Source of the DNA: a virus
Strand: one strand, 5' to 3'
Length of the DNA stretch: 40,850 nucleotides
Virus record (IMG/VR): IMGVR_UViG_3300009128_000048
Span: 1-40,850 of that record
Shown here: positions 19,140 to 38,349 of the stretch, piece after piece
How positions within the stretch are numbered: position 1 is the first letter of the stretch
How the letters are laid out: each line of letters starts with the position of its first letter
Position numbers and translations under genes: made by a program
Notes under the pieces: model-generated
What the model was told of the DNA's origin: nothing
The model's database searches: none
Seen by the model: only the letters and a program-made list of their open reading frames with translations

Positions 19140-19550
19140 ATGGCTAATCCAACAGGAATTCAAAAACGTCTTCTTGGTACTCACACAGTTCGTATTGATA
19201 CAAACTTGAGTGACAAAGAAGGATATGCAGTAGTCTTTGATACTACTGATGACAATGTTGTAAACATTGCATCTGACCAGACTCTTCCACCATTTGTGTT
19301 AGAGGAGGGTGCAAATGGAGCAACAACAGAAACAGTTGGCACAATTGCTCTTCCAGGATCAATCACTAAGTTCAAACTTGGTGAAACTGTTGCTGCAGGT
19401 AAACTTTTAGTGCCTACAGCTACAGCTACTTGGGAAATTGCAGATGCTGCTGGGGAAAGATATGGTGGTATTGCTCTTGAGAACGGAACAAGTGGTGATA
19501 TCATAATGGGAGTTGTGGTGCTTGGTGAAGTAGAAGCAAGTGATGCGTAA
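19140..19550 (+). CDS. Head decoration-like protein
   Basis: The 136-residue protein is beta-rich, Gly/Ala/Thr-rich, and looks like small capsid decoration proteins (related to DUF2190) found between protease and major capsid genes: GSITKFKLGETVAAGKLLVP then GERYGGIALENGTSGDIIMG. It would bind the shell outside to stabilise it. The leader ATAACT plus 10 nt precedes the start. Confidence 0.7.
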   Translation: MANPTGIQKRLLGTHTVRIDTNLSDKEGYAVVFDTTDDNVVNIASDQTLPPFVLEEGANGATTETVGTIALPGSITKFKLGETVAAGKLLVPTATATWEIADAAGERYGGIALENGTSGDIIMGVVVLGEVEASDA

Positions 19551-19577
19551 TTTTATTTAAATAACTAATATACTAAA

Positions 19578-20522
19578 ATGAGTTTTCCAAAATTAACTAA
19601 CTCACGGAAGGATACTCAGTTGACTAATATCCTACAGGCTTACACCAATCAGGATTACATCGCTGGCCAAATCCTTCCTACAGTTCCAAACCTAAGTGAA
19701 GAATCTGGGTACATTGCTGCAATAGGCAATGAACACCTACGTGTGTTTGATTCAAAGAGAGCTGTCTGGGATGAGACAGGACATAGAATGGAATTTAAAA
19801 TAACAAATGATGATACTTATAAAATTGATTACTATGATCTTGAAGCTTATATTCCAGATCGTCTTCAAGACCAAGCACAAAAACCTTTCAACATGAAAAG
19901 AGATGCAGCAATTAGCTTAAAGCAGGCAATGATGCTTGAGCGTGAAGTTGCATTGGCTACTGCTATGACTAGCACAACTATTCTTAGCAACAACACCACT
20001 CTTTCTGGCACTTCTCAATGGACTGATTATGTAAATTCAACTCCAGAATCTGACATTGAAACAGCCAGAGACACAGTTCAGGCTGCAATTGGTCGTGAGG
20101 CAAATAGCATTTATCTTTCTCGTAAAGTTTTCAATACTCTAAAAAGACATCCTTTCTTCCTAAATCTTGTAACAGGAGTAAAAGTTCTTTCTCCAAGCAT
20201 TCTTGTAGGGATCTTAAAAGATTTCTTTGAATTAAAGAATGTTGTTATAGGAAGTGCAATCAAAGTTTCTTCTAATGAAGGAGCTACTGAGACCAAGGCA
20301 TCAGTATGGGGAAATGATGCAGTTCTTTTCTATAAACCAGACGGACCAACTCTATGGGAACCATCTTTTGGTTACCATTTCACTTTATCTGGCAAAAATA
20401 TGAGAGTGACTGAAAGACGCCACACAAGTGATACAGGAGATTTGACTAAAGTTGAATGGGCATGGCAAGACAAAATCCTTGATGCAGATGCTGCATATCT
20501 TATAAAAGCTGCAACAGCTTAG
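19578..20522 (+). CDS. Major capsid protein
   Basis: The 314-residue protein starts MSFPKLTNSRKDTQLTNILQ and has the pattern of Mu/HK97-fold capsid proteins: TNQDYIAGQILPTVPN, YDLEAYIPDRLQDQAQKPFN, KRDAAISLKQAMMLEREVAL and, near the end, DLTKVEWAWQDKILDADAAYL. It builds the icosahedral shell. Position (after protease and decoration) and length fit. The sequence uses mostly A/T-ending codons like its neighbours. ATAACT plus 11 nt precedes the ATG. Confidence 0.88.
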   Translation: MSFPKLTNSRKDTQLTNILQAYTNQDYIAGQILPTVPNLSEESGYIAAIGNEHLRVFDSKRAVWDETGHRMEFKITNDDTYKIDYYDLEAYIPDRLQDQAQKPFNMKRDAAISLKQAMMLEREVALATAMTSTTILSNNTTLSGTSQWTDYVNSTPESDIETARDTVQAAIGREANSIYLSRKVFNTLKRHPFFLNLVTGVKVLSPSILVGILKDFFELKNVVIGSAIKVSSNEGATETKASVWGNDAVLFYKPDGPTLWEPSFGYHFTLSGKNMRVTERRHTSDTGDLTKVEWAWQDKILDADAAYLIKAATA

Positions 20523-20549
20523 TGCTTTATTAATTAACTATTTATTCAG

Positions 20550-21122
20550 ATGACTAAATATTTCAATAGAGAGAAAGTTGTTGCTAATAGAGTGCAGAAT
20601 GCTGCAAATGTTGGTACAGCAGGCACAGGTGTGACTGCAGTGGAATATGGTGATGGGTATAATCATGTAACAGTCCTTACACTAGCAGATGTTGCAATGG
20701 GGACAATCACAGGTAGTACAAATGAGGCATTTGGTGCTCTAGTTTATACTTTCCCTGCTGGCGTCCATGTTCATGAAGTAACCTATATGACTGTAGGCTT
20801 GACTACAGCAGGTACAACCACCACTGATACTCCAGATGTAGGCATTGGTTCTGTAATTGGAACTGGTGCTGTGTCAGTATTAAGTGGAACAGCTACATTT
20901 GAAGATTATGTTACAGGTCAGACTGCAGGAGACTGTGCAGGGACAGCTACAACAGTTGGTCCTCTTGGTGCAACTGCAGGAGTGCTAACTGGCATATCTT
21001 TAAATAAAGCAGCAGATGTTAAAGCAGTCCACATAAACTGTGCTGATGGCTGGCATGCAACTGCGACAGGAGCTTTAACAGCAGATGGTACTGTTGTTAT
21101 CAAATGGTCAACACTAGCTTAA
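20550..21122 (+). CDS. Small virion structural protein
   Basis: The 190-residue, Gly/Thr/Ala-rich beta protein (for example TKYFNREKVVANRVQNAANV, then VHVHEVTYMTVGLTTAG) directly follows the major capsid gene. Proteins of this kind are probably minor head or decoration components. No enzyme motif. TTAACT plus 10 nt precedes the start; a strong hairpin follows the stop. Confidence 0.6.
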   Translation: MTKYFNREKVVANRVQNAANVGTAGTGVTAVEYGDGYNHVTVLTLADVAMGTITGSTNEAFGALVYTFPAGVHVHEVTYMTVGLTTAGTTTTDTPDVGIGSVIGTGAVSVLSGTATFEDYVTGQTAGDCAGTATTVGPLGATAGVLTGISLNKAADVKAVHINCADGWHATATGALTADGTVVIKWSTLA

Positions 21123-21133
21123 TAATTTTCTCA

Positions 21134-21163
21134 GGTGGCTAAGATTCTTATCTCTTAGCCACC
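21134..21163 (+). promoter_or_regulatory. 11-bp perfect hairpin after head genes
   Basis: GGTGGCTAAGA (21134-21144) pairs with TCTTAGCCACC (21153-21163) around an 8-nt loop. No T-run follows on either strand, so it is not a typical intrinsic terminator. It could stabilise the upstream mRNA or be a processing site. Confidence 0.5.
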
Positions 21164-21196
21164 AAATGAAACTTATTATCTAATCATATAAATATC

Positions 21197-21445
21197 ATGC
21201 CAAAGAAAAAAAAGACAGCTCCAAAAGAGGTAAAAGCTCCTGTGGTTGAGCCAGAAGTTACTGAAGATGTTACATCTGAAGATCTTGCTGAAGCACTAGA
21301 AGTTGAAACTCCTGAGACTAAAGAGCCTACAGACATTGCTCTTTGCAATTTAATTCACAATGGAAGGAGATACAATAAGGGTGAAAAGGTGAAGCCAACA
21401 GATCCTTATTACTATTTCTTAAAAGAAAATGGATTTATAAATTAA
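21197..21445 (+). CDS. Small acidic hypothetical protein, 82 aa
   Basis: The N-terminal half is low complexity (Lys then Pro/Glu/Val-rich, with DVTSEDLAEALEVETPE). The C-terminal half holds DIALCNLIHNGRRYNKGEKV then DPYYYFLKENGFIN, a pattern I have seen in small phage head-tail genes but cannot name. It lies between head genes and the fibre-like cassette, where head-completion proteins would be expected. Confidence 0.55.
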   Translation: MPKKKKTAPKEVKAPVVEPEVTEDVTSEDLAEALEVETPETKEPTDIALCNLIHNGRRYNKGEKVKPTDPYYYFLKENGFIN

Positions 21446-21458
21446 CCAATAAAAAATT

Positions 21459-22070
21459 ATGCTACCATTAAAAACTTCTCAGCCATCAGATTTTATAGTT
21501 GACCCAGCAAGAGATGGCATTGCAAATGCACTTTGGTTTGCCAATAGTGGTACTTTGGCATTATCAGGTGCCTCCCCAGAGCAATTTAGATTTAACACAG
21601 ATGATGCCATAATAAGGGCAGATGTTAAGTATGGGGTATTTGAATTTGCTGTTACTTTTCCAACAACAGGAGTTCAGACACCAACAGATTTAACAGATGA
21701 TGTTGCTTTTGGATTGAAAAACATATCTATGGGTGACTATGGAAAGATTGATGTATTTGTTGACCAAAGTGGGGATTCAATAACATTTAGGACATATAAC
21801 AATGAGGGAACTATCCAAAGCACTACTTTAACTTGGGATACTGATTGGAATAATGCACTAACGATATTCAGATTTGGCTGGGGTGACAATCATGTTTCCT
21901 TAGATGTTCTTGTAAATGCAGCAACCACTTGGACTAATCTTGCAAACCATGAAACCAGCTTCCCAACACGACCTCTAAACATGTTTGTTAATGTTGTGGG
22001 GGCAGATAATTTTGATGTTGATTTTATAGCTGCAAGAAATGTACAAAATAGCTCAATAATGCTTATTTAA
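21459..22070 (+). CDS. Beta-sandwich-like hypothetical structural protein, 203 aa
   Basis: This protein has no signal peptide and is predicted to be mostly beta (ADVKYGVFEFAVTFPTTGVQ, then KIDVFVDQSGDSITFRTYNN). The composition and aromatic pattern suggest a concanavalin- or carbohydrate-binding-like sandwich, but this is only a fold-level guess. TTAACC plus 11 nt precedes the ATG. It is the last gene before the signal-peptide cassette. Confidence 0.55.
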   Translation: MLPLKTSQPSDFIVDPARDGIANALWFANSGTLALSGASPEQFRFNTDDAIIRADVKYGVFEFAVTFPTTGVQTPTDLTDDVAFGLKNISMGDYGKIDVFVDQSGDSITFRTYNNEGTIQSTTLTWDTDWNNALTIFRFGWGDNHVSLDVLVNAATTWTNLANHETSFPTRPLNMFVNVVGADNFDVDFIAARNVQNSSIMLI

Positions 22071-22080
22071 TTAAACACTT

Positions 22081-23310
22081 ATGAAAACATTCAAAAAAAT
22101 ACTTATATTGGTGGCACTTTTTTTCACCTTTGTGGTGGGGGCAAATGCCATAGATATAGTCACATCATCGGGGGTCTGGTATCGTAATGGAGTCAATATG
22201 CTCTTGAATCCACCTACACTTCAGGTAGGCTCGACAACCACAAGGATAGCAAAAGGTTGGTTCACTGATATGGATATCTCAGGAACACTAACATTTAGTG
22301 GTGTTATGGGTAGTGATTTGGATATGAATGGATACTATCTAGAGGATTCATCTGCAGGGATATTGCTATTCAGAGGCACAGGTAATACTAATAATGAAGA
22401 TTTATCATTTGACTTTGAAACGACAACTAATCAAGTTGCGATTACAAGCACTACAGGAGTAACAGGGTTAGATTTTGGAGTTTTAGAGACTTTTAGGGAT
22501 GATGATACTGCAGATTCATTTGGCAATACATTAACTGCTCCAAATGCTAGTGCTTTATGGGAGACCGCAGATGCTAATGCAAATGCACTCTTAACAACTT
22601 TACCAGAGGGTGGAGCAACTGATGTACCAGTATTTATAGTGGGTGATGCTTCTGCTCTTAATACAGACCTTGGATTATTTGATGGAATAACTGACCCAAC
22701 TGTTGCAATTTTAAGTGATGACCACTCAAAAGCTACTATGGTTAGCCATGATGGCACGAATGGTGTTGTGGAGGCTACATCAGGGAGTATTGATATCCCA
22801 GATGCAACACTTGGTCTTATTAATATGCCTCAAGATGGAGGATTAGTTGATATAATGGACATAGCTGTCTCTGCTGCTGCTGTTGATACTACAAAGCAAG
22901 GTTATACATTTAGAATTGATAATAATGCTGCTTTATCTTTATATGCTTATGATTCAGCCAACAATGGAAATGCAAATGCCCCTGTCTTACAGATCAGGGC
23001 AGGTAAAACAGAAAAGGCTGAAGCAATAGCAGGAGCTGATTCATTCAATGTAGGAGATTATCATTTTAATGTTGATACATCAGGAGGTGCTTATACAATT
23101 ACACTTGATACAGATTTTATCACTGATGGAACTCCGACAGATAATTCAATTGCTGTAATAACTGATTGGAGTGGTAATGCAGGGGCAAATAATATAACAA
23201 TAGCTACAGAAGGAGCAGAGACTATCAATGGTGCTGCAACTGTAACAATTGGAGCTAATTATAATACCTTACACATAAAATGTAATGGTTCACACTGTGT
23301 AACTTTTTAA
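22081..23310 (+). CDS. Exported fibre-like protein 1
   Basis: The N-terminus MKTFKKILILVALFFTFVVG followed by ANA is a typical Sec signal peptide with likely cleavage after Ala23. The rest (about 385 residues) is beta-rich and Asn/Asp/Thr-rich like phage tail fibres (WYRNGVNMLLNPPTLQVGST near the N-terminus). The C-terminus NNITIATEGAETINGAATVT then YNTLHIKCNGSHCVTF resembles the end domain of many fibre proteins, with the last two cysteines possibly forming a disulphide outside the cytoplasm. A signal peptide on such a protein is unusual, because phage tails assemble in the cytoplasm. It is the first of six consecutive genes with signal peptides. Confidence 0.75.
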   Translation: MKTFKKILILVALFFTFVVGANAIDIVTSSGVWYRNGVNMLLNPPTLQVGSTTTRIAKGWFTDMDISGTLTFSGVMGSDLDMNGYYLEDSSAGILLFRGTGNTNNEDLSFDFETTTNQVAITSTTGVTGLDFGVLETFRDDDTADSFGNTLTAPNASALWETADANANALLTTLPEGGATDVPVFIVGDASALNTDLGLFDGITDPTVAILSDDHSKATMVSHDGTNGVVEATSGSIDIPDATLGLINMPQDGGLVDIMDIAVSAAAVDTTKQGYTFRIDNNAALSLYAYDSANNGNANAPVLQIRAGKTEKAEAIAGADSFNVGDYHFNVDTSGGAYTITLDTDFITDGTPTDNSIAVITDWSGNAGANNITIATEGAETINGAATVTIGANYNTLHIKCNGSHCVTF

Positions 23311-23313
23311 TAA

Positions 23314-25347
23314 ATGAAAAAACTATTTAAAATATTATCGGGATTATTAGTATCATTATTAATTGTAGGGATAGTTTTTGCAGCTAATCCAATTTCTGTG
23401 GATAGGAATGCTCTTAGCTTTTATTTTGATGGTGGTAATAATAATGGTGTTGATACAGTTTGGGAAACTTCGGGTAATGGACTTGATGCTTCAGAGGTTG
23501 GTACAGTCACTTTTGATGATGACTATGTAGAATTACCAGGAACCAATGGTAACTATATGACATCCTCTGCATCAGGAGTATTTAATACAGCAAATATTTG
23601 TTTATTATATGTATTTACACCTGATTTTGAGGCAGCAGATGATAATTATGCTGTATTGATGGATGGTGATGGTGGGGCTACTAGATATGGTATTCACAAG
23701 GGGGCAGATGCAAACAGTAATTATCTTCCAGTTATACTTGGTGGCACTACTGTTGAGATTATACCATTGGCAACTTATGAACCTTACTGGAAAGCTAATG
23801 AGGAGAATGTAATTATTGTTTCGGGTACTTCGGGTGATACAAATGCTTGGTTGAATGGAACACAGATATTAACAAATGATGCTACAGCATGGACACCTCA
23901 AGACCCTGCAACTATTTATGTTGGAGCTTCTTATACAGGTGGTTCTGCATTTGATGGCAAAATCCACTCGTATCGAGCTTGGCAGAGGCAATGTACTACA
24001 GATGAGGTAACAAGATATTCAGCAAATAGATCAACAGAAATTACATTAGCAGGTGAAAGTGGTGTTACTCTTGATTTAGTAATGGGTAATAATGATGGTG
24101 CTGCAAATGTTTGGGATGGGTCAGATAACAAGTTGGATGCTACTGAAACAGGTACAGTAACTTTTGCAGATGATGGCATAACTATTCCTAATACTACTGG
24201 TAATTATGTTTCAGGTACAGGAACAGGTGTATATAATTCCGCCAATCAATCATGGGTACTTAAGTTCACTCCCAATCATGCTGTTAATGATAATACAAAT
24301 CGTGTTTATCTTGCTTCTACGACTGGTTCGATTTATGGGCTTGAAAAAACTAGCGATAATGATTTTAATCTTTATTTAGGTAATACTGGATTTTTGGCTG
24401 TAACTTTTGCTAGTTATGAGCCTTATTGGAATGACAATGCAGAAAATATATTTGTTTATTCAGGTACAACTGGTAATAATAATTTATGGCTTAATGGCAC
24501 TAAGGTGATGAGTGGTAATGCTACTGCTTGGACACCTGCCAACCCAGCAAATTATTTTGTTGGGACTAGTTCTGCTGGTACAGCTCCTTCTCATAGTAAA
24601 ATTCATTATTATAAGGTTAGGAATAGGCTATTATCAGATGCTGAAGTTGCTAGCATAAGTAGTGATAGGTCAATTTCAATAACTAGTGGCACAAGCAATA
24701 ATGTAGTTGGCTTGTGGAATATGGATAGTAATGATGTTAGTGGCACTACTGTATTTGATAAATCATTTTATGCGAATAATGCGACCTTAGTTGGTGCTCC
24801 TTCTTTTGTGACAGGAAAGAAAGGTGAAGGTGTTGATTTAAACGGAACAAGCCAATATTTAACAGCTACGGATAATGCAGGTTTTGCTTTTGGCACAGGT
24901 GATTTCACATTGGCTGCATGGGTAAACATAGATGATTTAACAAAATTACAGCACCACACTATATTCTGCAAAGGTAATCCGGAAAGTGCTGGAGAATGGT
25001 GTTTTCAGGTATTAGGAAATGCTGATAGCAGGGTAAACTTTAGATCAAATGCTACGAATGAAGTTATATCAACCTCTACATTGACGCAGGATGAATGGGT
25101 GCATGTTGTAATAACCAGAACAAGTGGTTCTTTACAGGCTTATATTAATGGAGTGGCAGATGGAGCATCTGGAGCTTTTGCAGATAATATAACTAATGCT
25201 GAAAATATAACTATGGGATATAGGAATGTTACATACAATGGTTATTTTGATGGGACTTTGGATGATGTAAGAATCTATAATGATGATCTTACAGCAGATG
25301 AAATTAGCAATTTATATAATGCAGAAAGAGTATTTTTCTTAAAATAA
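23314..25347 (+). CDS. Exported protein with three LamG-like domains
   Basis: A signal peptide (MKKLFKILSGLLVSLLIVGI then VFA, cleavage near 23) precedes two related concanavalin-like units of about 210 residues (roughly 25-235 and 250-455). Both carry TYEPYWKANEEN or SYEPYWNDNAEN and NAWLNGTQI or NLWLNGTKV. The third unit (about 465-677) is a clear LamG/laminin-G type lectin: VVGLWNMDSNDVSG, GDFTLAAWVNIDD, EWVHVVITRTSGSLQAYING and DGTLDDVRIYNDDLTADEI. Such domains bind sugars or proteins on surfaces. The exported location suggests the infected cell's surface. No membrane anchor or sorting motif is visible at the C-terminus. Confidence 0.82.
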   Translation: MKKLFKILSGLLVSLLIVGIVFAANPISVDRNALSFYFDGGNNNGVDTVWETSGNGLDASEVGTVTFDDDYVELPGTNGNYMTSSASGVFNTANICLLYVFTPDFEAADDNYAVLMDGDGGATRYGIHKGADANSNYLPVILGGTTVEIIPLATYEPYWKANEENVIIVSGTSGDTNAWLNGTQILTNDATAWTPQDPATIYVGASYTGGSAFDGKIHSYRAWQRQCTTDEVTRYSANRSTEITLAGESGVTLDLVMGNNDGAANVWDGSDNKLDATETGTVTFADDGITIPNTTGNYVSGTGTGVYNSANQSWVLKFTPNHAVNDNTNRVYLASTTGSIYGLEKTSDNDFNLYLGNTGFLAVTFASYEPYWNDNAENIFVYSGTTGNNNLWLNGTKVMSGNATAWTPANPANYFVGTSSAGTAPSHSKIHYYKVRNRLLSDAEVASISSDRSISITSGTSNNVVGLWNMDSNDVSGTTVFDKSFYANNATLVGAPSFVTGKKGEGVDLNGTSQYLTATDNAGFAFGTGDFTLAAWVNIDDLTKLQHHTIFCKGNPESAGEWCFQVLGNADSRVNFRSNATNEVISTSTLTQDEWVHVVITRTSGSLQAYINGVADGASGAFADNITNAENITMGYRNVTYNGYFDGTLDDVRIYNDDLTADEISNLYNAERVFFLK

Positions 25348-25370
25348 CTTTATAATCTAATTCTACAAAG

Positions 25371-26558
25371 ATGAACAAATTTAAAAAATTATTAATATCA
25401 CTAATTGCATTAGCTGTATTGATTACACCTGTATATGCGACATATCAGACATTCTATGATTTTGTATACATGGGTGCATCAGGATTATCAGTTGTTGATA
25501 ATTCAGGTGCTAATGTAGTATTTCAAATGCAGACCAATGGGGATTTTGATATGTATGGCACTGAAACAATAAGGGGAGACTCCCCAGCAGATGGAATAAA
25601 AGATTTACTTAATTTTTCTTCTGTTGATAATGCTGTAACTAATCTTACCATTGCAAATGCTGTTACTGGTAGTAATGCTGTTATAGGGGTGGAAAGTACA
25701 GACACAGATACAGGTATTACTGTCTCTCCAAAAGGAACTGGTCAATTTAAAATAGATGCTGATTTAGATTTAACGACTGGAAGTGTTGATATTGATGTTA
25801 TTGATAACAATGCCACTGCTGTTTCATTTGATTCAGCTGGGTCAGTAGGATTAATTGTAGTTGATACTACAACAGGAACTCCTGGTGTAACTATGAGTGG
25901 TTATCTTACTGTTGCAGGTGGAATTACAGGAGCTACTTCTACAATAGAGGGAGCTGTTCCTTCATTAATATTTATAGATACAGATACAGCTGATGAAGAT
26001 GATAGTGCTGCTATACTTACAAATTGTACAGACACAGGAAGTGGTACTGAAGATTGTGATGTAACATTTCAGCACCAAGTTGCTGGTGCGGATGTAAACT
26101 GGCTTGTTGCAGATGCAGATGGGAATATGACATTTACTACAGGAGGAGACATGGTGTTAGATGCTGATGTGGATATGACTAGCACAATTGGCAATGATAT
26201 CATAGCATTTAAGTTAACACTTGAACCACCAGGAGGAGTTAGAAATGTAGCAATAACTGGTATAGCTGCTGCTGATGTTGCTAATTTTAGTAATTTATTT
26301 GTACAAGGTAATGGTGGGGCAATAACAATTACAGCTACTCCATCAATTCCACTAGGAACAAATGGTTCAACTCTTTGTTTTGTTGGTAATAGTGATGCGA
26401 ATACTTTAACCTTTCAGGACAATGATACACTAGCAGGAAGTCAAATTGAAACTGTTGGTAATCTGAATATAACTTTGGGACTACTTGACCAAGTATGTTT
26501 TAAATATTGGGGTACTTATGGTAGCTGGCTACAATCAACACCTTATATGGACTTATAA
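25371..26558 (+). CDS. Exported fibre-like protein 2
   Basis: A signal peptide (MNKFKKLLISLIALAVLITP then VYA, cleavage near 23) is followed by about 370 residues of beta-rich, Asp/Thr/Val-rich sequence. It contains SLIFIDTDTADEDDSAAILT, a block seen in phage fibre-type proteins and echoed in the next gene. The C-terminus (GNSDANTLTFQDND, then LLDQVCFKYWGTYGSWLQST) matches in outline the ending of exported protein 3. Role unknown; binding at a surface is the simplest guess. Confidence 0.75.
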   Translation: MNKFKKLLISLIALAVLITPVYATYQTFYDFVYMGASGLSVVDNSGANVVFQMQTNGDFDMYGTETIRGDSPADGIKDLLNFSSVDNAVTNLTIANAVTGSNAVIGVESTDTDTGITVSPKGTGQFKIDADLDLTTGSVDIDVIDNNATAVSFDSAGSVGLIVVDTTTGTPGVTMSGYLTVAGGITGATSTIEGAVPSLIFIDTDTADEDDSAAILTNCTDTGSGTEDCDVTFQHQVAGADVNWLVADADGNMTFTTGGDMVLDADVDMTSTIGNDIIAFKLTLEPPGGVRNVAITGIAAADVANFSNLFVQGNGGAITITATPSIPLGTNGSTLCFVGNSDANTLTFQDNDTLAGSQIETVGNLNITLGLLDQVCFKYWGTYGSWLQSTPYMDL

Positions 26559-26575
26559 TATAACTTTTAATTAAG

Positions 26576-28063
26576 ATGAATAAATTTAAGAAATTCTTAT
26601 CATATATTCTTGCAACAGTATTTATTGCAAGTTTAAGTATCAGCCTTACATATGGCGCACCAGTTCCTGGAGGTGGAAGTGGTCAAATGATTGACAGAGT
26701 AGATATACTTCAATTCCGTGATGATAAAACAATACAGGTATTAGAGCCTACATCTGGTAATTATGCTGATTCAATATACATTGAACCTGATGATACTAAT
26801 GTGAGCTACTTTAGGTTTTATCCTAGTGCTACAGGTGTTGCAACTTTAATAGATATAGATAGTACAGATGCAGATGTTGGGTTTGGAATACAAGCAAGGG
26901 GTGCTGGGGTTATAGATTTAAAAAGTAATACAGAGGTAAATAATCAATCACTAGGGATTAAATATGTAGATGCAGGAGCTGCAGGTACCACATTTACAAT
27001 GTATCAAGATAGTGCATCTCCAGCAGCAAATGATGTTATTGCTAATATAATTTATTCTGGTGAAGATGATATTGGTGGACAAGTAACTTATGGTGATGTT
27101 GAGGTTCAAATTAAAGATCCCTCGAATGGTGCTGAGGCAAGTTCAATATTCCATAGGGCTATTGCTGGAGGTGCTTTAGAGATTTTCTTAGAGCTTAGTG
27201 GTGTAGATGATGCATTGGTAGCATATAAAAATACTGATATTCAAGGTAGTTTTGCTGTAATAGAGGAGTCAGATGGGGCTGTAGGTGCTACAGTTGAAAT
27301 ATTAAAAGATACTGCTAGCCCTGCTGCATCAGATGTAATAGGAACACAAAGTTGGATTAGTCAGGATAGTGCAACAAATGATACTACTTATGCAGAAACA
27401 GAAGTACAAATTCTCGACCCAGCAGATGGTAATGAGGATGGATTTTTAGCTCGCAAATTAATGATGAATGGTGTATCAACACAATATTTATCAGTCGATG
27501 GAAATGCTGGAGATATGGGAATAGAAATACCGATATTATTTGCCAGTTCAGTATTATTAGAAGCAAATACAGGTATTACTTATGGCGATAATACAGATCA
27601 GAATTTAGACATTTTAACTGCTGATGTTTTAGCTGGTGATTATAAATTGCAATGGGTAACTGCTGATGGTGAATTTGTTTTAACAGCTCCACTTGCATTG
27701 GATAGCTACCTTATAGTAGGTGGTGAACTCGAAGTAGAGGGAACAACAACTTATACACCTTCTAGTGATCAGGCAAGAGCTGATGATTCTACAATTACAA
27801 TTGCTAATACAATTGTAAGAGTGGCTGGTGATGGTGCTGCTGCTGTACTTGATACAAATCCTGCTGTTGAAGATGGTGCAATTGATGGTCAGATAGTTTA
27901 TATACAGGGAACAAGTGATGCCAATACTGTTCAGATTGCAGATGCTGTTAATACTGCTTTGAGTGGAGGTCAGGCTTTTACACTTGGTCAGGGTGATGTG
28001 CTTACTTTAGTATGGGATGATGGAGATAGTTTATGGTATGAAATTTCTCGTTCCGACAATTAG
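26576..28063 (+). CDS. Exported fibre-like protein 3 with internal repeat
   Basis: A signal peptide (MNKFKKFLSYILATVFIASL then SISLTYG) is nearly the same in its first seven residues as in the previous gene, which suggests duplication. Two internal units, starting around residues 140 and 228, share TMYQDSASPAANDVIANI and EILKDTASPAASDVIGT-type sequence followed by a YGDVEVQIKDP or YAETEVQILDP segment. The C-terminus, VYIQGTSDANTVQIADAVNT then ALSGGQAFTLGQGDVLTLVW, is a known type of fibre end domain. No catalytic motif is visible. Confidence 0.75.
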   Translation: MNKFKKFLSYILATVFIASLSISLTYGAPVPGGGSGQMIDRVDILQFRDDKTIQVLEPTSGNYADSIYIEPDDTNVSYFRFYPSATGVATLIDIDSTDADVGFGIQARGAGVIDLKSNTEVNNQSLGIKYVDAGAAGTTFTMYQDSASPAANDVIANIIYSGEDDIGGQVTYGDVEVQIKDPSNGAEASSIFHRAIAGGALEIFLELSGVDDALVAYKNTDIQGSFAVIEESDGAVGATVEILKDTASPAASDVIGTQSWISQDSATNDTTYAETEVQILDPADGNEDGFLARKLMMNGVSTQYLSVDGNAGDMGIEIPILFASSVLLEANTGITYGDNTDQNLDILTADVLAGDYKLQWVTADGEFVLTAPLALDSYLIVGGELEVEGTTTYTPSSDQARADDSTITIANTIVRVAGDGAAAVLDTNPAVEDGAIDGQIVYIQGTSDANTVQIADAVNTALSGGQAFTLGQGDVLTLVWDDGDSLWYEISRSDN

Positions 28064-28081
28064 AATTAATCTTAATTAATT

Positions 28082-28975
28082 ATGAATAAATTTTTAAAAA
28101 CATTATCAGGTATTATATTATTGCTAGCTGTTACGACAGCAACTTATGCCATACAAACAGGTGGTGCAGGTCATGCCAATAGAGATATTGGGGGACTTGT
28201 TGTAACTGATAACGATGGAGCAGATGCTAATACAGTATTATTAGTTACAGGTGATGGAACACATGCTAGTACTACCTTTAATGATTTGAGTACAAGCAAT
28301 CATACAGTTACAGGTGTTAATCAAGCCCACCACACTCGTATGATTCGATTAGGAAACGTAAGTTCGATATTATTTGATGAAGCAGATGATGCACTTACAG
28401 TACCACATCATGCTGATTTTGATATTGGAACAGGCGACTTTACTGTTGAGGCATGGGTTTATATGGATGATCCGCCAGAAGTCCCAAATGAAGTTTATAG
28501 AATAATGGCTCAAGGTGAAATGGAAGCAGCCAATGGAAATTGGACTTTTGGTTTTGGAAGTGCTTGGGGCGCAGGTTATCAGTTAAACTTTGCTATAAGA
28601 GTTGGTGGAGAAAATGTTGATGTGCTGTCGACAGGTATGGATGATATAGTCAAACATTCTAATCAATGGGTTCATCTAGCAGTTAGTAGAAGCAGTGGGA
28701 CAGTAAAGATGTTTTATAATGGAATAGAAGTATATTCTGGGGCCTCGGCTGGAAGTATGACAACTACAGATGCAGGAGATATATCTATCGGTGCAAGATG
28801 GAATACTGGTGCTTGGATTGAAGAATTTAGTGGACTAATGGATGAAGTTAGGTTTAGTGATGTAGCTCGTTACACATCTGATTTTACACCAGTTTATCAA
28901 CACAATGGTGAAAGTTTTGATATAGAAGATGCAAATGGTAATGACCAGAGATTATTATTTAAACAAGTTTATTAA
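28082..28975 (+). CDS. Exported single-LamG protein
   Basis: A signal peptide (MNKFLKTLSGIILLLAVTTA then TYA, cleavage near 23) is followed by a spacer and a LamG domain (about 98-275): FDIGTGDFTVEAWVYMDD, QWVHLAVSRSSGTVKMFYNG and FSGLMDEVRFSDVARYTSDF. It resembles the third LamG unit of the 677-residue protein. It probably binds glycans or protein partners outside the cytoplasm. The upstream leader is TTAATC plus 10 nt. Confidence 0.8.
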   Translation: MNKFLKTLSGIILLLAVTTATYAIQTGGAGHANRDIGGLVVTDNDGADANTVLLVTGDGTHASTTFNDLSTSNHTVTGVNQAHHTRMIRLGNVSSILFDEADDALTVPHHADFDIGTGDFTVEAWVYMDDPPEVPNEVYRIMAQGEMEAANGNWTFGFGSAWGAGYQLNFAIRVGGENVDVLSTGMDDIVKHSNQWVHLAVSRSSGTVKMFYNGIEVYSGASAGSMTTTDAGDISIGARWNTGAWIEEFSGLMDEVRFSDVARYTSDFTPVYQHNGESFDIEDANGNDQRLLFKQVY

Positions 28976-28976
28976 T

Positions 28977-29420
28977 ATGAAACTTAAAAATATAACATTG
29001 GGCATAGCAGCTATAGCCACAGTTGTGATGATATCTGTGTCTGCAAGTGGTGCTGGCAAGTGCAAGGACACAGATAAAAAATTGATGGATGGGAAAAAGA
29101 TTCTGTGGTGCGGTAGCCAAGTTGAATTAACTTCAAAAAAAGCAGACCTTGAAAAGAATTTAAAAAATGCCAAATTTGCAAAAGAGAATCTTGCTTTATG
29201 TGATTTGGATTCTGATTTTAAAAAGATTGTCAAAGACACCCTAAAGACAGAATACAATAGGCAGAAAAAAACAAAGGAGAATAAACAGTATGACTTTGAT
29301 ATCAATTATAGACCACTGCTTTATGGTGTGCTTAGCAAAGAAGTAAAAGCTCAGGATTATAAAGCAACAGGAAAAATAACAGACACAAAATTATTTCAAG
29401 ATTTAATTCTTAACAAATAA
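28977..29420 (+). CDS. Small exported basic protein
   Basis: The likely start is MKLKNITLGIAAIATVVMIS at 28977, 1 nt after the previous stop; an earlier Met (28929) is inside that gene. A signal peptide ends near SASGA (26). The mature part of about 120 residues is Lys-rich, helical, with three cysteines (GKCKDTDKK, LWCGSQ and ALCDLD). It is unlike the beta-rich neighbours. No family recognised. It is the last signal-peptide gene in the cassette and lies 4 nt before the holin-like pair. Confidence 0.65.
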   Translation: MKLKNITLGIAAIATVVMISVSASGAGKCKDTDKKLMDGKKILWCGSQVELTSKKADLEKNLKNAKFAKENLALCDLDSDFKKIVKDTLKTEYNRQKKTKENKQYDFDINYRPLLYGVLSKEVKAQDYKATGKITDTKLFQDLILNK

Positions 29421-29424
29421 TATT

Positions 29425-29613
29425 ATGTTAAAAAAATTCTTCAATACAAAAGAGGCTAAACGTGCATTATGGACAGTTTTAAATGCTGTTATGGCTTTGG
29501 CTCTGGCTTACTTTATCTATCTTGCTGGGAACAATGTAGCTTGGGCAATTGCACTTGTACCACCATTCACAGCACTTACACAATTTATAACTAAATACTT
29601 AAACTCACAATGA
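29425..29613 (+). CDS. Holin-like two-helix membrane protein
   Basis: The 62-residue protein has a charged N-terminus (LKKFFNTKEAKRAL), a hydrophobic helix WTVLNAVMALALAYFIYLAG and a second one WAIALVPPFTALTQFIT, then a short tail. Size and layout suit a class II holin that opens the membrane for the endolysin. TTAACA plus 9 nt precedes the start, and it overlaps the next gene by 4 nt (ATGA). The identity rests on topology and position only. Confidence 0.6.
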   Translation: MLKKFFNTKEAKRALWTVLNAVMALALAYFIYLAGNNVAWAIALVPPFTALTQFITKYLNSQ

Positions 29614-29831
29614 CAGACTTTGTGAATAAGCACTCATTTAAAATACAACTTAGTGTCGCCATTGCTGTGATAGGATTTGTAATTTATTGGTCTTCTGTCT
29701 CAGCCAGATATGTTTATAAAATTGAAGACAATGGCAAAAGAATAAATAAAGTTGAAGTGAAACTTGATGCACTTGCAACTAAGCAAGATTTGCAAATTTT
29801 AAAACAGGATATCAAAGATTTCATAAAATAA
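29610..29831 (+). CDS. Single-pass membrane coiled-coil protein, possible lysis accessory
   Basis: Residues 12-32 form one membrane helix (IQLSVAIAVIGFVIYWSS), followed by a charged coiled coil (INKVEVKLDALATKQDLQIL). The pattern is shared by inner-membrane spanins and by XhlA-like lysis proteins. ATGA overlap with the holin-like gene supports coupled expression. No lipobox-containing partner was found. Function by context only. Confidence 0.55.
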   Translation: MTDFVNKHSFKIQLSVAIAVIGFVIYWSSVSARYVYKIEDNGKRINKVEVKLDALATKQDLQILKQDIKDFIK

Positions 29832-29835
29832 CAAT

Positions 29836-30630
29836 ATGTACACAACAATTGCAACAGTCAGGGAATTCTCGGGATTTGATGATACTACAAAAATCTCTGC
29901 AACAACAATAAGAGGTAAAATTTCCATGGCAGATGCCAAAATTGATGGTGCCATTGGATATAGATATAACTTGCCATTGGCATACCATAGGCAGAACACC
30001 ATTACATTCAGTGACACAGGAAGTGGCTCAGGAACTTTAACAGCAACAATTAATGGAAGCACTTATGCAATAGCTATATCAAATACACTGACAGCATCTG
30101 CTGCTGCAGATTTGATGAGAGTGGCTATGGTTGATAGCTCTGATTTTATAACTCTTGGCTATATAAGTGAGGAAGCAAGTGGCGATGCAGTGCTTACAAT
30201 AATATCCCAAACTGATTCTGCAGTATTGGTAACTGCTAGTGCTGAAGTAAATATCACAGATGCTGGAGGCACTGTTCAGGGGATAACAGCCACAGCAGGA
30301 ACTGTTCAGAACAGATACACTCCGATGGTTAGCCAGCTTAGTGCAGAGATAGCCACTGCCTTGCTTCTGATGGATAATTATGGAATTGAGGCTCAGGACA
30401 CTCCCAAGGATGGGGTTGCTCGGATGGAAAGGCTTGATGAAATATTGTCTCAATTGCAGGGATCAAGTGATAGGATGACTCTAAAATTATATGATGAAGT
30501 TGACCACACAGAATTAACACAGTCATCTTCAGGTCTTCCAAGTTATAAACCTACACAGGCAACATCTGATGCTGATTATACTGGAGAGGATCCTACACAG
30601 TCAAATGTAACAATTAAAGACAAATTCTAA
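29836..30630 (+). CDS. Head-tail connector (DUF1320/Mu gp36-like) with inserted domain
   Basis: Residues 1-53 (MYTTIATVREFSGFDDTTKI, AKIDGAIGYRYNLPL) and 159-264 (NRYTPMVSQLSAEIATALLL) together match the DUF1320 gp36-like protein, a connector between portal and tail. A beta-rich insert of about 105 residues (54-158; GTLTATINGSTYAIAIS) interrupts the family between the YNLP segment and its following helix. The insert resembles extra domains in the major tail protein and hub. The insert may face outward on the neck. Confidence 0.72.
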   Translation: MYTTIATVREFSGFDDTTKISATTIRGKISMADAKIDGAIGYRYNLPLAYHRQNTITFSDTGSGSGTLTATINGSTYAIAISNTLTASAAADLMRVAMVDSSDFITLGYISEEASGDAVLTIISQTDSAVLVTASAEVNITDAGGTVQGITATAGTVQNRYTPMVSQLSAEIATALLLMDNYGIEAQDTPKDGVARMERLDEILSQLQGSSDRMTLKLYDEVDHTELTQSSSGLPSYKPTQATSDADYTGEDPTQSNVTIKDKF

Positions 30631-31073
30631 TGCTAACTTTTAAATTAGATGATAGGAAGGCAAAGAGAGTGCTAAGGAATTTAAATAAAGGAATATCTGA
30701 TTTCAAACCAGCATTAGAATTGACAAGGAGATATCAGCTTAAAGAAATTGAAAACCAATACAAAACAGAGGGTAGCAATATCCTTGGGAGTAAATGGCAA
30801 TCCCTGAAGAGAAGAACTATATTGGCAAGGATCAGAGCAGGATTTGGGGCAGGACCAATATTGACTGCTAGTGGCAAAATGAGAAAGTCTCATAGAAAAA
30901 AAGTTTTGAACAAGAACACACTTGGAATTGAGAATACTGCATCTTACTACAAATACCACCAGCAAGGCTCAAAAAGGATTCCTCAAAGGCAAGTTGTTGG
31001 GCACTCAAATAAAATGATTAAGGATGTTGTAGATATATTCGTAAAATACTTAAGAAAAATAATGCAATCATAA
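30630..31073 (+). CDS. Virion morphogenesis/tail completion protein (Mu gpG-like)
   Basis: The 147-residue basic protein has the gpG/phage virion morphogenesis pattern: ILGSKWQSLKRRTILARIRA, then PILTASGKMRKSHRKKV and ASYYKYHQQGSKRIPQRQVV. In Mu this protein joins head to tail. It shares one nucleotide with the previous stop (TAATG) and is followed directly by the tail terminator candidate. Confidence 0.85.
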   Translation: MLTFKLDDRKAKRVLRNLNKGISDFKPALELTRRYQLKEIENQYKTEGSNILGSKWQSLKRRTILARIRAGFGAGPILTASGKMRKSHRKKVLNKNTLGIENTASYYKYHQQGSKRIPQRQVVGHSNKMIKDVVDIFVKYLRKIMQS

Positions 31074-37869: not shown

Positions 37870-38349
37870 ATGAACAAAAATGATGGAATAAAATTAAAAG
37901 GTCATTATCATATTGAGATTCATGATGAAAAAACAGGTGAATTAAAAAGAACTTATGATTATGACAATTTAATAACCACAGTAGGTTTAACAGCTTTTGC
38001 TGCACAAATGGCAGGAGACCAAACAACTGATATTGGTGACAATTTATATATAGCAGTTGGTAGTGATGCAACAGCTCCAGTAATAGGTAATACAACACTA
38101 GGAACTGAAGTTGCAAGAAAAGCAGTTGGTTCAACTGCATTTTCAGGAGCAGTAACAACTAATGTAGTATTTTTTGCTGCTACAGAAGCAACTGGAACTC
38201 ATAGAGAATTTGGAATGTTTGGAGATGGTAATGCTGCTACTGCTAGTGCTGCTGCTGATTCAGGAATTTTATATTCACACGTTGCTGCTAATGTTACAGT
38301 GGCAGCAAGTGAAACTTTAACAGTATCCTTTCAATTAACTTTTAGCTAA
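37870..38349 (+). CDS. Tail fibre-like protein, 159 aa
   Basis: The protein begins MNKNDGIKLKGHYHIEIHDE and has NLITTVGLTAFAAQMAG then LYIAVGSDATAPVIGNTTLG, a pattern known from small phage tail proteins after the hub (DNLITxxGL, then VGSGTTAP). It is mostly beta. It likely attaches to the tail tip or fibre. A preceding TATAAT at 37857-37862 is an AT-rich coincidence or weak promoter. Confidence 0.65.
   Translation: MNKNDGIKLKGHYHIEIHDEKTGELKRTYDYDNLITTVGLTAFAAQMAGDQTTDIGDNLYIAVGSDATAPVIGNTTLGTEVARKAVGSTAFSGAVTTNVVFFAATEATGTHREFGMFGDGNAATASAAADSGILYSHVAANVTVAASETLTVSFQLTFS

Follow-up and report, generated by a model that had tools for sequence, protein, structure and literature searches.

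It is assumed that tailed phages make and assemble their fibres in the cytoplasm, and the phage exclusion proteins known to us so far are small. T5 Llp and the Cor family are exported to the cell envelope and are proposed to block receptors; Llp, an exported exclusion lipoprotein, is encoded beside the gene of the T5 receptor-binding protein pb5, and added pb5 alone blocks T5 infection of E. coli (PMC9586334). The target proteins of phage diversity-generating systems (DGR) have been reported to lack signal peptides (PMC6199706). We analyzed a locus that combines fibre- and lectin-type protein bodies with predicted export signals. It lies in an IMG/VR virus record whose whole length of 40,850 bases is called the window below. 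The late region of the window is organized as follows, where a slash marks the predicted cleavage site of each signal:

13811: terminase gene, late region
15459: Mu-like portal gene, late region
19578: capsid protein gene (PHROG 1005), followed by small genes and then by the six-gene block
22081–23310, + strand: predicted exported fibre-like protein 1, 409 aa, signal MKTFKKILILVALFFTFVVGANA/ID
23314–25347, + strand: predicted exported protein 2, 677 aa, three LamG/ConA-like domains, signal MKKLFKILSGLLVSLLIVGIVFA/AN
25371–26558, + strand: predicted exported fibre-like protein 3, 395 aa, signal MNKFKKLLISLIALAVLITPVYA/TY
26576–28063, + strand: predicted exported fibre-like protein 4, 495 aa, signal MNKFKKFLSYILATVFIASLSISLTYG/AP, Phage_depo_C-like C-terminal domain at 27725–28060
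28082–28975, + strand: predicted exported protein 5, 297 aa, LamG, signal MNKFLKTLSGIILLLAVTTATYA/IQ, predicted mature N-terminus A/IQTGGAG
28977–29420, + strand: protein 6, 147 aa, small, Cys-containing, predicted to be exported or N-terminally anchored, signal MKLKNITLGIAAIATVVMISVSA/SG
29425–29613, + strand: small holin-like membrane protein, 62 aa
29610–29831, + strand: small membrane protein, 73 aa, holin/anti-holin PHROG 10340 (E=6e-5), DUF2730-like
from 29836: neck genes
31698: tail protein gene
33839: tape measure gene
35434: tail tip gene
37870 and 38365: ordinary tail-tip fibre genes, without signal
38975: amidase gene

The initial annotation described six consecutive genes with Sec-type N-termini at 22081–29420, and all six were recovered, in tandem and each scoring above the cut-off of our signal score. 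Only the sixth start was revised: position 28929 merely marks the longest reading, and the ATG at 28977, right after the previous stop, is the start. The genes share the + strand with intergenic gaps of 1–23 bases. They lie after the capsid gene and before the neck genes, at a distance from the tail-tip genes, where those at 37870 and 38365 encode the tail-tip fibres. A local promoter and terminator scan of positions 19500–30700 performed no better than on shuffled sequences, and PADLOC found no defence system match in the window.

The signal score was built from a classic prokaryotic cleavage-site weight matrix and from rules that asked for a basic start followed by a hydrophobic core free of charges; its cut-off was set at 3.5. 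When calibrated on a panel of 32 E. coli proteins, it recovered each of the five known to be exported, with plausible cleavage sites, and made four false calls, all of them N-terminal membrane helices, so that a positive call should be read as 'signal peptide or membrane anchor', either of which means export. The block genes scored between 5.4 and 10.1 (6/6 pass), and among the other 43 genes of the window only three passed, all small, namely the membrane proteins at 29425 and 29610 and the gene at 357–611 (−). The latter, located away from the block, codes for an 84-aa protein that begins with MNKFLYIF and has a membrane anchor as well as four cysteines. Shuffled N-termini passed at a rate of 2.6% over all window genes and of 5–22% for each of the six genes' own sequences; thus, composition accounts for part, not all, of the signal scores. 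The chance of six signal genes being contiguous among 49 is about 3e-6. Based on these sequence features, export of the block proteins by Sec-type signals is well supported. An uncleaved signal would leave the protein membrane-anchored with its body outside, and therefore 'exported' is safer wording than 'cleaved'. If the host has an outer membrane, proteins delivered by Sec alone reach no further than the periplasm; no model of a T9SS or sortase C-terminal sorting domain was among the Pfam and NCBIfam matches of the block.

The premise that fibre-like phage proteins normally have no export signal held in a comparison set taken from phages and viruses that carry similar domains: as annotated, none of the 18 proteins (fibre, LamG or neighbouring ones) passed (0/18), and one of them has a signal-like start when re-read. 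The core claim of the initial annotation, an exported fibre-like set unlike normal tail fibres, is supported by the six signals out of six and by the separate signal-less tail-tip fibres.

We searched IMG/VR with a query restricted to the 112 C-terminal residues of the gene 26576 product, in a search that needed near-exact peptide matches, and counted each distinct virus once, leaving the window out. The C-terminal domain was found in at least nine distinct viruses (L015/L016, L019/L021, L020, L022, L025, L026, L027/L028, L029/L031 and L030). Among the matches listed, seven of the eight viruses with an intact gene start possess an export signal on the domain-bearing gene, which is Sec-type in L015, L021, L022, L025, L027 and L029 and lipoprotein-type in L026, where the 480-aa fibre alone matches a lipobox cysteine rule of the PROSITE PS51257 type. 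The domain gene of L030 has an intact start and no signal, and that of L020 is cut off at its start by the contig end. Since the query omitted that end of the protein, the signal in the carriers is an independent observation.

Conserved synteny in other phages, which had been proposed as a check, was indeed found, and in unrelated backbones. The capsid proteins of four of the seven signal-bearing carriers (L015, L026, L027 and L029; G2, G8, G9 and G12) have no detectable similarity to that of the window, whereas their module genes do resemble those of the window; the capsid protein of L021's virus is 42% identical to the window's. For example, L015 has a different capsid gene, four exported genes downstream of it and then two small membrane genes. 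Its exported set includes a fibre of 969 aa that ends in the domain seen in 26576, as well as a 126-aa homologue of protein 28977 at the same place (shuffle test 0/2000); L020 and L021 contain weaker candidates for this small protein. A search with gene 28082 matched L015/L016 in the signal and first residues only (64% over 32 aa, in a 62-aa protein of L015). The window membrane genes 29425 and 29610 resemble their L015 counterparts weakly, with 76 and 26 of 2000 shuffles as good, respectively, and are therefore linked to them by position and type.

The recurring gene order comprises an exported fibre, an exported A/[VI]Q[TL]G protein, a small envelope protein and small holin-like membrane proteins. 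A signal- or anchor-bearing second gene follows the domain fibre in the window, L015, L026, L029 and L020, with the predicted mature starts A/IQTG, A/VQLG, A/ITEG, A/VQTG and A/VQTG, respectively. A search of 108,650 aa of ORFs for A[VI]Q[TL]G, a motif picked after being seen, gave four exact matches, each at a predicted cleavage site (4/4). The hydrophobic stretch of the second gene is long in L020 and L026, making an anchor possible there, and for L029 the cleavage site chosen by the score lies a few residues before the motif site. The module directly follows capsid/decoration genes in the window, L015, L026, L027 and L029, the neck genes in L021, and lies in the fibre/lysis region in L025; an amidase is encoded downstream of it in L020 and L025. 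Across eight records, 23 of 25 module genes of at least 100 aa bear a signal versus 5 of 221 genes elsewhere, a descriptive contrast because the module limits were drawn from these genes.

Several further genes were noted in these records. FISUMP domains have a C-type-lectin-like fold that also occurs in DGR targets, and one such domain (PF09603) forms the C-terminus of a 741-aa exported protein in L021 (4831–7056) that also has a partial LamG match. In L029 (8040–9113), a holin-like gene is followed by a gene for a 357-aa protein that looks by eye like a papain-like cysteine peptidase and has no Pfam match. In L022 (69–4746), glycosyltransferase- and methyltransferase-like genes, recognized by eye, are located directly 5' of the exported fibre gene and may form a second surface-modifying block. 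Glycosyltransferase-like genes, read from sequence, adjoin the exported fibre gene of G006.

The domain content of the block agrees in large part with the initial annotation. LamG domains in two of the six genes were confirmed, with three copies in 23314 and one in 28082. The former contains two adjoining diverged copies (23545–24651) that look like a tandem duplication, and a third, stronger copy. Three fibre-type C-terminal domains had been proposed, of which those of 26576 and 25371 are clear and that of 22081 is weak. The C-terminus of 26576 matches Pfam Phage_depo_C (E=4e-6), alignment shows that the last ~110 aa of 25371 are a further copy of the 26576 domain, which also occurs in the MW202898 tail fibre, and the C-terminus of 22081 weakly matches a Salicola phage protein (E=3e-3). 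Residues 1–87 of 22081, signal included, are homologous to the exported fibre of L029 (39%, E=6e-14). A structure model of the C-terminal domain, built from 11 sequences and to be read with caution (pLDDT 66), had a tailspike depolymerase as its best PDB match in Foldseek, and the other matches included CBA120 TSP4, the capsid spike of Pseudomonas phage Pa223 and the secreted proteins CpaA and StcE. The structure of the small protein 28977 was predicted with low confidence (43). NCBIfam gave a partial TafC fimbrial match to a LamG gene, all else in the block falling below cutoff, and no catalytic domain was recognized among the Pfam, PHROG and NCBIfam matches of the window module proteins. Binding-type domains are present across the modules, including LamG, Phage_depo_C, FISUMP in L021 and a weak BclA_C match in L020.

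The related MNKFxKxL starts had been read as a hint of duplication. Recent duplication is not supported, as no DNA repeat covers the starts and no similarity extends upstream; the first 60 bases of the six genes are 33–60% identical. The block looks like a real, shared and undescribed export module and not like a duplication artefact. It is missing from the relative L005/G001, whose capsid protein is 63% identical to that of the window; at the same place this relative encodes two proteins of 237 and 261 aa, neither with a credible signal or a LamG domain; the 237-aa one scores 3.8, but its core is not a signal-like hydrophobic stretch. Thus, the module comes and goes between close relatives. 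No match was obtained by tblastn of the L015, L027 and L029 exported fibres against 50,697 phage records. A fourth related exported fibre matched only parts of fibre proteins among cultured phages, and the three of these that were inspected have no signal. Two contig scans of species genomes with the C-terminal domain revealed no prophage copies, and no report of such a module was found in literature that covered subscription papers in part.

Translation signals bear on the host. Shine-Dalgarno-like sites are depleted upstream of window genes (2/39 versus a 24% background), and A is enriched at −3 (67%) and −13 (74%), which suggests a host without Shine-Dalgarno initiation. This pattern resembles the situation in Bacteroidota (PMC6847099). 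Two module phages, G006 and G007, do use Shine-Dalgarno sites.

We tentatively prefer the scenario of a shared export module whose envelope-displayed, glycan-binding proteins would shield receptors both on the infected cell and on its debris. The host Sec system would move several proteins of fibre or lectin type, and with them a small envelope protein, out of the cytoplasm late in infection; the signals would be removed after Sec passage, and the proteins would stay in or on the envelope. There, their glycan- or receptor-binding domains would most likely occupy the phage's own attachment sites, preventing superinfection and keeping new virions from being lost to the dying cell or its debris. 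A link between export and the lysis phase would be provided by the adjacent holin-like membrane genes. Masking is favoured by the receptor-binding type of the cargo, by the block to infection that the T5 receptor-binding protein imposes when added by itself, and by the exported exclusion protein of T5, which is encoded beside the receptor-binding gene. A possible but doubtful variant is a mobile module for an extracellular fibre structure of several proteins, carried by the infected cell or by virions after release, with Sec-exported subunits docking via the mature N-terminus [VI]Q[TL]G.

The main rival, which we consider unlikely, is exported virion decoration, in which the fibres would be secreted, fold in the periplasm or outside and join capsids or tails at burst. 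The position of the module right after the capsid gene in most cases (the window, L015, L026, L027 and L029) suits virion proteins equally, the modelled C-terminal domain appears to resemble tailspikes and the Pa223 capsid spike, and the conserved predicted mature N-terminus [VI]Q[TL]G is what a docking motif might look like. However, the module is not always found by the capsid gene, as L021 and L025 demonstrate, G001 lacks it despite its 63% identical capsid protein, and we know of no tailed phage that assembles its appendages by secretion followed by attachment. That the same bodies are nothing but ordinary tail fibres, the hydrophobic N-terminus being a virion anchor or irrelevant, is the least probable explanation: the fibre-type bodies and the PHROG tail-fibre matches in L022 and L026 would fit it, but in unrelated phages the N-termini show the classic three-part build of a signal, complete with predicted cleavage sites, comparison fibre and LamG proteins from other phages start without them, and the window encodes its canonical tail-tip fibres separately.

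Two other scenarios retain export and assign it a different purpose. Secreted depolymerases or matrix-modifying enzymes could loosen capsule or extracellular polymer and help the progeny spread, as Phage_depo_C in 26576 and the tailspike depolymerase as best PDB fold match would suggest; the absence of a recognized catalytic domain among the window module proteins makes this improbable. Adhesion or host-surface conversion, in which the proteins would stick infected cells to other cells or particles and increase encounters, agrees with the several lectin- and adhesin-type domains (LamG, FISUMP and the weak BclA_C match) and is rated as quite improbable, since no integrase occurs in any record searched, most of them maybe fragments, and there is thus no sign of long-term conversion.

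A Sec-exported fibre/lectin module that is kept in unrelated phages, and present or absent between close relatives, would mean that some tailed phages remodel the surface of the infected cell on a larger scale than the known small exclusion lipoproteins do. Its recurrence in several unrelated uncultured phages points to some tailed phages coating or masking the cell surface as they kill the cell. Moreover, 'tail fibre' calls in metagenomes of such phages may not denote receptor-binding virion proteins, which calls for caution in host-range prediction.

Among known systems, phage tail fibres and tailspikes, including Phage_depo_C proteins and LamG baseplate or fibre proteins, have the same body and C-terminal domains as the block proteins. 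They are assembled in the cytoplasm without an export signal, whereas all six block proteins have predicted signals and are encoded away from the tail-tip genes. A close case is in the Manatee Spring podovirus MW202898.1, where the 'caprin-2 domain protein' UOF83102.1 (L006:15287–18007) probably starts 11 codons later than annotated, after a Shine-Dalgarno site, giving a signal-like N-terminus, MFNKILIAIVFIITCLNAFS/DGNT, that scores 2.94, just under the cut-off. As in the module, this fibre-like protein is followed by a small membrane protein; however, one such gene was seen, and the phage's own neighbouring tail fibre has no signal. The FISUMP protein of L021 shares its fold type with DGR targets, whose phage members are reported to have no signal peptides (PMC6199706). 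A DGR system was rejected, as all 15 records searched lack a reverse transcriptase, and so was lysogenic conversion by a temperate phage (no PF00589 integrase in 11 records, where fragments and other integrase families are possible). The block is likewise signal-bearing when compared with T5 Llp and the Cor family; those proteins are small (<10 kDa) and have a lipobox, a feature absent from the modules except for the 480-aa fibre of L026, whereas the block encodes several large multi-domain fibre and lectin proteins, its six products being 147–677 aa long.
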